Shown here: piece by piece, positions 18,994-21,792 of the stretch
Position numbering within the stretch: position 1 is the first letter of the stretch
How the letters are laid out: each line of letters begins with the position of its first letter
The notes under the pieces: generated by a model
Database searches by the model: none
Told to the model about the DNA's origin: nothing
Seen by the model: the letters and a program-made list of their open reading frames with translations, nothing else
Made by a program: the position numbers and the translations under genes
From: Pezizomycotina sp. ARF18
Lineage: Eukaryota > Ascomycota
Assembly (NCBI GenBank): GCA_002224055.1
Contig: AZLU01000001.1
Span: 833,016 to 897,015, forward strand
Direction of reading: 5' to 3'
Length of the DNA stretch: 64,000 bases

Positions 18994-21792
18994 CTAAAAA
19001 AGATCCAGAACAGCCTATGGTATTGAATAATCATTAGCACTACCATCACACGGCATTGATAAGAGGATGTCTACATACCCCATGACTAGCATCAGATACC
19101 AGCCTAGCATATTTGGCCAATGATCCACGGTTTACTTTGAGTTTTGGCGCAGTCCATTTCTCTAGTCTAGCTTTGATCTCGTCATCCGATAGGTCCACAC
19201 TCAGAATATTGTTTTCGCTATCGATCGAGATGACATCCCCATCTGCCCGCCATATGCACACGGGTTAATATTGCATCTCAATATTATAAGCAAAAATATT
19301 AGATAAGATTCTTACTTTGAACGATGGCTATTGGTCCACCGGTTTGAGCCTCAGGACTATATGGCCAACAACTGGATATTCTGTTAGGTTTGCGGACCTC
19401 TACTTGCTGTTACTGACAACGCATTTCTTGAAGTTACTTACTAAAACCATGTGATGCTGATTCAACCAGTTTACTATTAGCTTGGATCTCATATTCAACG
19501 CCGAAGACAATGTAGAGACCATACCGCCACTATATCTTCCATCAGTTATCAAAGCTGTATTCTTCTTGAGCCCAGCACCGATCAACGCCGCGGAAGACTT
19601 GAGTTTGCTCCGGCTAACAGCAGACATACCCAGCATTATTATCACTCCACACCGAGTGTCAAAGCCTATATTGGTGATCACTTACCATGCCCGGTCCTCC
19701 TATAAGCTAAATTAGCGCTCATAGATTAGATGAATTATATGCATGCTTTTCACATACCCTTTGGTCCTTCATACCTAACAACGAGCACGGTGTTCTCTTT
19801 TGGCTTCACTTCGCCCGCCAAAAGCGCCTTTACTAAGAGTTGTTCGGCGTCGAACACGAGAGCCTTACCAGTGAACTTGGTACCTTCCTTGCCAGTAATT
19901 TTAGAAACGGCTCCTCCGGGGGCCAGGTTGCCGCGGAGGATCCTTATATGACCGGTACTTTTGAGCGGTTTTTCAAGGTTAATGATGGCCTGATCCTGCC
20001 TCAGCGATGGGAAAGGCTCGACATTCTCCGCCAGCGTCTTGCCTGTGACCGTCGGTATACCACCATCAAGAAGGCCAGCGGCAATGAGAAGCTTACAGAC
20101 CGCTGGTGTACCGCCTACTTCATATAGATCTGATACCAAGAAACGTTAGAGGTCGTGCGTAAGATTTTAAGGGCGAAGAATCCTAATACCTGACATGTAG
20201 TACTTCCCGCTAGGCTTGAGGTCAGCAATGTACGGCACTTTGTTGCTGACGCGCTGGAAATCGTCGAGGGAAAAGTCGGCAGTATCGGCAGCATGCGCCA
20301 TGGCCGGGAAATGCAAGCACGCATTCGTGCTTCCTCCTAGAGCCTTTAGTGCTATCGTCAGTTCCCGTTCCTTTCCTACATGAAAGAAAGAAACATGGCA
20401 AAATGTGCCCACTTGACAAGATTCAAGACAGGATATACCATCGTCATTACAAGAGCATTTTCGAAGCTCCTTTTAGTAATCAAATCCCTAGGCAAGATAT
20501 TTTTCTCCATACAGATTTTGACAGCTGCTGCCGCCGCCAGACACTCTCTTTTCTTCTGGGGATTTTCTGCCGGAGTACTGCTGCTGCCAGGAAGAGTCAA
20601 TCCCATGGATTCTATTGCCGTCGCCATGGTATTCGCCGTGTACATTCCGGGGCAGCCTCCGACCCAGGGCACGCGTGCATGATCACGTCTTCGAGGTCTT
20701 CAGTCGTAGCATCGCCGTACACCTGCGCCATGTGCGTCTCAAAACAAGTGGATATATTTATAGGCGTATCGGGATTCTTCGGCGAGTAGCCCGGCATGAT
20801 CGTGCCACCATATACCATCAAAGATGGACGGTTGTGCCTCGCCATCGCCATAATACCTATTACAGATTTGTATTAGAGCCTGGTGACGATTTCACACTGA
20901 AGGGAAAAGTTAAAGGTGGTACTTGCATCCAGGCATATTTTTGTCGCATCCGGGAATCGCAATGCAGGCATCATGGTGCTGAGCACAAGTGGTCGACTCG
21001 ATGCTGTCGGCGATCAAATCTCGGCTGGGAAGAGAGTACCGCATTCCTGTCGAAAATCGAGGTAGCTCTTATATTAGTTCCGCGGATCCTTAGAATAGGA
21101 GGAAAAGAGTCACATTCGCAACTGTTCTCACCTTCATTGCCCATAGTGATTGCGTCCGATACACCGACTGTACTGTACTGCCACCCTATCATTCCTTCTT
21201 TTTCTACGCCCTCTTTCACCGTCCTTCCAAGATCCAACACTATTTTTGTGGCCGACGTTTCTTCAGTAACCAGTCGTGCCAAGGAATTATGGTTACACAA
21301 AACTTACGATGCTGCAGGAACATGCGTTAGTGTGGATTTAACGATCGACTGAAATGTAATTCGATTTCGCTGTGGACGAACAAACGCACCGTATTACAAG
21401 GATTTCCCTCCCACCAGACAGAAGCGACACCTGGAATTGGGGGATCATAGTGCAGTTAGACGACGGAGCTCAGCTGGTTTCTGTACATTCAAACAATGGG
21501 AAGCCAGCCTTGATTAGGCCCTACTAACCGACTTGCGGTTTGTTCTTCATGTCCTCCTTGGTCTTGACGCCAGCGGCATACAGCATTGCCTACCAAGTGT
21601 AGGTAATTAGCATCATGATTGATGTTAAGATTTCAAGAAAGAGTGAGAAAATACCTGAGCACCGGGGTTCTCAGCGCCCCTCGTGAGCACATGCGACCAC
21701 CGATTCAACATCAATTGGCCATTGGCGTCCTTCGTGCCGTACGGCACCTCCCCGAAGTTGAGGTATCTCGAGGGTTCTCTCTGAGAGGACAT
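18994..21792 (-). CDS. Dihydroxy-acid dehydratase family protein (ILVD/EDD), ILV3-like
   Basis: Homologue of dihydroxy-acid dehydratase, the Fe-S enzyme that makes 2-keto acids in valine/isoleucine synthesis. I place 15 exons: 21655-21792, 21529-21589, 21390-21430, 21308-21311, 21132-21239, 20927-21046, 20439-20856, 20190-20370, 19758-20129, 19686-19699, 19525-19613, 19442-19456, 19316-19371, 19079-19242 and 18994-19014. After three one-base corrections (20,663-20,665; 19,604-19,606; 19,354-19,355) all phases agree and give 600 residues, the usual family length. Visible family blocks include [42 protein letters not shown] and ASHG, with the cluster cysteines present. The start [13 protein letters not shown] is not a typical mitochondrial presequence, so this may be a cytosolic paralogue and not the main Ilv3. 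The three slips lie in G, A and C runs and look like assembly errors. It is divergent from the 23,141 hydrolase. Confidence 0.9.

Follow-up and report, generated by a model that had tools for sequence, protein, structure and literature searches.

The four bases CATC at positions 21311-21308, read on the minus strand, are very probably a coding exon of 4 nt, constitutively included, in a gene resembling dihydroxy-acid dehydratase (DHAD), with a short intron on either side. In the initial annotation of the window, which is the whole 64-kb stretch of contig C1 analysed here, CATC was bounded by CTGCAG and GTAAGT and lay between introns of 78 and 68 nt; the coordinates, the sites and the lengths are all exact. 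When homology, frame, splice-site scores, the branch site and intron lengths are taken together, a real 4-nt exon is also the best explanation. The claim that the conserved block could be assembled only by way of CATC does not hold, as a single in-frame intron of 146 nt with a GTTTGT donor also fits.

The gene and its exons

The features are as follows:
18994..21792, minus strand: the whole DHAD-like gene, 15 exons as read by eye, with a putative start codon
21390..21430, minus strand: exon 3, 41 nt, whose Cys corresponds to one of the residues that bind the cluster in Arabidopsis DHAD
21312..21389, minus strand: candidate upstream intron, 78 nt, GTGCGT..CTGCAG, phase 0, with CTAAC 15 nt before the acceptor
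21308..21311, minus strand: candidate 4-nt exon CATC, the His codon CAT and the first base of a Leu codon, which restores NPCNTHLLDL
21240..21307, minus strand: candidate downstream intron, 68 nt, GTAAGT..AAATAG, phase 1, the only branch-like site being CTGAA (23 nt)
21132..21239, minus strand: exon 5, 108 nt, starting TG TTG GAT (the rest of Leu, then LDLG)
21240..21385, minus strand: the alternative to these two introns, one intron of 146 nt (GTTTGT..AAATAG) that leaves the frame intact, with Val replacing His
19686..19699, minus strand: 14-nt exon followed by GTAAGT, placed by the aligner at all three intron costs
19442..19456, minus strand: 15-nt exon followed by GTAAGT, placed by the aligner at all three intron costs

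The PF00920 (ILVD/EDD) profile matches the gene exon by exon, above the cut-off, and Arabidopsis DHAD matches it over residues 28-222 (E 4.3e-59). All three cysteines that coordinate the [2Fe-2S] cluster have their motifs in the translation, NPCN, CDKNMPG and GGCPGMYTA, of which the last two were matched by eye; the ligand positions of DHAD follow PMC9543379. Scans of the 64-kb window with Rfam, at gathering thresholds, and for tRNA genes gave no match in either case.

The exons are 138, 61, 41, 4, 108, 120, 418, 154, 372, 14, 89, 15, 56, 164 and 21 nt long. A spliced alignment of the gene to a profile of 78 bacterial DHADs, run at intron costs of 8, 14 and 20, finds the same first 13 introns at cost 8 as the reading by eye and misplaces the last, while at costs 14 and 20 the last intron is dropped and the pair flanking CATC is merged into one. 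GTAAGT follows all three of the tiny exons, compared with none of the 11 other donors of the gene (P = 0.003, post hoc). There is no exon shorter than 39 nt in the aligned parts of the DHAD gene on contig C292, of RPA135 or of RPB2. The gene also has a homology-placed GC-AG intron, with a GCAAGT donor, at 20857-20926.

The motif at the candidate 4-nt exon

With CATC included, the spliced translation of the minus strand reads GNPCNTHLLDLG. The initial annotation had put CAT and CTG, His-Leu, at the site of the DHAD motif, and this is borne out, with Thr standing where that motif had Met. Bounded by a complete acceptor and a complete donor (CTGCAG-CATC-GTAAGT), the four bases fall within the size class of micro-exons, at most 15 nt. 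Without CATC the frame shifts and a stop follows after seven codons; if either flanking intron is retained, stops arise as well. Neither splice model requires a frame break in the stretch around CATC. A search of the assembly for a second copy of this region returned one match, the region itself.

Among the matches listed (80 loci of 595 stretches), the His and the following Leu are present in all 78 bacterial relatives that cover the motif, a count that is not fully independent since the filter demanded CN.H, with no motif-covering locus lost to it. The other two of the 80 loci, L028 and L070, begin at contig ends inside the alignment. In Arabidopsis DHAD, for which PDB 5ZE4 is listed as the structure, the same stretch is GNTCNMHLLKLSEAVKEGVE, and the DHAD gene on contig C292 reads GNPCNMHLLDLNNRIREGVE in a single open frame; His-Leu is present in both. 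Counting along the alignment puts the Cys of the motif at position 66 of the Arabidopsis chain, and Cys66 is named among the residues that bind the [2Fe-2S] cluster (PMC9543379). The residue before His, Thr in the window gene, is Met in 77 of the 78 bacterial relatives among the matches listed.

A diverged paralogue

A profile search of the assembly (46.4 Mb in 408 contigs) has two ILVD/EDD genes among its best-scored candidates, the window gene and the gene on contig C292. At columns invariant among the listed bacterial DHADs, the former differs at 15 of 136 and the latter at 4 of 139 (P = 0.009). The C292 gene is thus the better conserved of the two paralogues and the window gene the diverged one, and with so many invariant columns changed the latter may act on another substrate.

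The C292 copy (L009, 2300-4520) has five introns, compared with 14 in the window copy as read, and has no intron at the site of CATC. None of its five introns shares both position and phase with an intron of the window gene, three of them lying about three residues off, and the introns flanking CATC are therefore not common to the paralogue.

Other ways to keep the frame

One or two introns with GT or GC donors, AG acceptors and a length of at least 35 nt were enumerated between fixed codons. This gave 214 combinations, 27 of them stop-free and in frame, and three of those 27 insert exactly three residues: THL through the micro-exon, TVL through the 146-nt intron, and TFL through another 4-nt exon.

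The last of these, TTTT at 21302-21299, with a TAAG acceptor and a GTGTAA donor, would give NPCNTFLLDLG. It keeps the frame, but the donor does not have the usual G at position 5 and His is lost, and this reading is extremely unlikely.

In the model with the 146-nt intron the upstream exon is four bases longer, CATC is plain intron sequence, and the product, with NPCNTVLLDLG, reads GNPCNTVLLDLG, the sole change from the micro-exon model being His to Val. The frame is thus kept with one intron fewer; the micro-exon keeps it as well and in addition restores His-Leu. The spliced aligner, which is blind to the motif, chooses the micro-exon at intron cost 8 and the 146-nt intron at costs 14 and 20, and its choice turns on about 11 BLOSUM62 points, so that conservation alone is indecisive. 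It is less decisive still because this paralogue tolerates change at 15 of 136 invariant columns and has Thr for Met; losing the His would be less unexpected in such a gene than in a well-conserved one. Against the single intron stands the fact that the His it removes is present in all 78 relatives among the matches listed, and CTAAC-CTGCAG, GTAAGT and a fitting CATC between them would all have to be coincidence. Taken with the splice signals described below, this makes the 146-nt intron improbable.

Splice signals

Discovery of introns by coding hexamers in 264 kb gave 597 donors for GT-AG and 552 to 778 for five decoys, which is no enrichment, and homology-placed introns were therefore used as the reference. 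There are 16 of these, 12 from this gene and four from the C292 gene; contested introns were excluded, and one C292 intron adjoining a frame break was dropped. They range from 58 to 98 nt, with a mean of 74. The candidate introns of 78 and 68 nt fall within this range, while 146 nt exceeds all 16. The aligner did place longer introns elsewhere, one of 156 nt in the C292 gene and one of 230 nt in RPA135, neither of them in the reference set, but the former adjoins a frame break and may be misplaced.

Scored with a weight matrix of the 16, the donors of the two candidate introns, GTGCGT at 7.24 bits and GTAAGT at 7.21 bits, each exceed 13 of the 16 reference donors; the GTTTGT donor of the 146-nt intron, at 4.15 bits, exceeds one. 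The acceptor before CATC is average, with a score of 4.64, seven of the 16 reference acceptors being weaker. On a recount, 12 of the 16 reference introns have a CTRAY site 12-27 nt from the acceptor, as the upstream candidate intron does with its CTAAC. The final acceptor, which the two models have in common, scores 2.69, level with the weakest reference, and has no CTAAY branch site. The stronger signals, CTAAC-CTGCAG and GTAAGT, are those that face the tiny exon. Under priors set by the analysts, the log-odds for the micro-exon over the single intron come to 7.4 to 19.1 bits; 11 of 16 was used for the branch site, which is about 0.1 bit off the recount.

It might also be that both forms are made, through alternative 5' splice sites four bases apart, with His and Val enzymes both in frame. 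Donor 21389 with CATC would then give an NPCNTHLL enzyme, and donor 21385, with the one long intron, an in-frame NPCNTVLL enzyme that lacks the conserved His next to the cluster. The THL and TVL models are indeed both in frame and share the final acceptor, but the GTTTGT donor is 3 bits lower and nothing indicates its use. The production of both forms is slightly less probable than the 146-nt intron by itself, and a switch between them is equally doubtful. If such a switch were true, the choice between donors four bases apart would tune a dehydratase with no frameshift.

Chance occurrence of the arrangement

A three-residue insert ending in HL arises in 22 of 2,000 dinucleotide shuffles, and THL by way of a 4-nt exon in 217 of 40,000 dinucleotide shuffles of the interior. 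With thresholds set at the candidate's own scores, an arrangement of full strength around 1 to 15 nt is found in 2 of 40,000 shuffles, and THL through a 4-nt exon with sites of at least the real strength in none of 40,000.

The genome sample was 264 kb on both strands, or 528,000 strand-bases, about 1.8% of it N. AG-N4-GT at the candidate's strengths occurs in it once, as CATC itself. Stretches of 1-30 nt with a branch site and acceptor before them and a donor after them, all at the candidate's scores, number three: CATC, the 14-nt exon of the window gene, and a 24-nt segment on L100. The weight matrix behind this count has a small training set, drawn mainly from the window gene, to which the sites of that 14-nt exon themselves belong. 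Loosening the thresholds raises the totals to 8, 11, 21 and 29; cases of length 4 make up 1, 2, 2 and 3 of these respectively. The 24-nt segment, on the minus strand of L100 from 9960, has a good branch site, acceptor and donor, and may itself be a micro-exon, in a putative gene.

A proposed order of splicing

From the sequence, the frame, the conservation and the signal scores we infer that CATC would be spliced in, and constantly so, to give the joined product NPCNTHLLDL. The introns of 78 and 68 nt, in phases 0 and 1, would break the frame three residues past the cluster-binding Cys. They would most likely be removed sequentially, since the two sites of a 4-nt exon can hardly be occupied together; the same reasoning has been applied to micro-exons of plants (PMC8831610). 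CTAAC-CTGCAG before CATC and GTAAGT after it may offset the small size of the exon.

Frame breaks and assembly quality

Single-base breaks interrupt the frame of the window gene at three places, near 20662, 19604 and 19357. These could point to a decaying pseudogene, in which the splice pattern at CATC would be functionless, as could the fact that the gene is diverging faster than its paralogue on C292. The same aligner finds 3 breaks in 1,670 coding nt of the window gene, 5 in 1,674 of the C292 DHAD, 6 in 2,291 of RPA135, and 9 in 1,634 and 3 in 501 of RPB2, although some of these may be misplaced introns. The RNA polymerase genes of the same assembly thus break at a similar or higher rate, and because of this the three breaks are probably assembly noise. 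Of the 136 invariant columns the window gene has moreover kept 121, and it also retains the cysteines of the cluster; its decay into a pseudogene is very unlikely.

Numerous single-base frame breaks are seen in conserved genes of contigs C292 (L009), C15 (L119) and C82 (L121) as well, and they suggest that the assembly carries indel noise. By its RNA polymerase genes the organism is a fungus. The RPB2 pieces on C82 score 1414 bits against the best of the solved chains, 3h0g of fission yeast; against two further chains, both of yeast, they reach 1352 and 1294 bits, and against the mammalian type about 1033. Matches resembling RNA polymerase subunit 2 also lie in L117 (G000:C257:15235-18540), in an 879-aa open frame with no stops. 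This open frame is unlike the other copies and perhaps belongs to a different kind of element.

Comparison with known ultra-small exons

The CATC exon is probably new, while its kind, the ultra-small exon, has been described before in other genes. Searches of open-licence papers turned up neither a fungal exon of 4 nt nor any such exon in a DHAD gene. In two Cryptococcus papers, the passages concerned name the micro-exon solely as an option of a read mapper, and a study of recursive splicing in human cells (PMC6224609) has no bearing on CATC. It would add a candidate 4-nt exon in a gene for a metabolic enzyme to the few ultra-small exons of fungi. A gene finder that weighs introns with no regard to their signals would produce an in-frame but probably wrong protein here, one whose active-site motif is altered. 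Searches for others can use as their signature an apparent intron roughly double the normal length that contains good AG-N4-GT sites.

Stwintrons (spliceosomal twin introns) are similar in that two introns almost adjoin. In a stwintron, however, a splice element of one intron is split by the other, whereas here four coding bases part two introns that are complete. Neither intron has an interrupted donor or acceptor, and a stwintron at CATC is rejected.

The human MPC1 gene has a constitutive micro-exon of 4 bp that needs the sites on both sides and has been read as a case of exon definition (PMC9929638). The number of bases, four and so not a multiple of three, is the same. MPC1 combines long introns and exon definition in human cells, whereas the introns here are short and fungal.

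Among fungi, the 20-nt micro-exon of Trichoderma Xlr2 (PMC11121469) also lies in a conserved domain, but it is longer than CATC and is regulated by glucose. P450 genes of Phanerochaete chrysosporium have exons from 6 bp up (PMC1184071), and an 8-nt case is quoted in PMC12940212. These too are tiny exons between short introns in enzyme genes, although they are larger and belong to another gene family.

The nearest parallel is the 1-nt exon of Fusarium CYP621A, which 20 orthologues share and RNA reads support (PMC12940212). It is four times smaller, and CATC is known from the sequence of one genome. Both are ultra-small fungal exons in a conserved enzyme motif that were deduced from frame and motif, in both an uninterrupted relative serves as the marker of length, and in both the apparent intron is roughly double the norm: 139 nt in CYP621A, where the median is 56, and 150 nt here, where the mean is 74.
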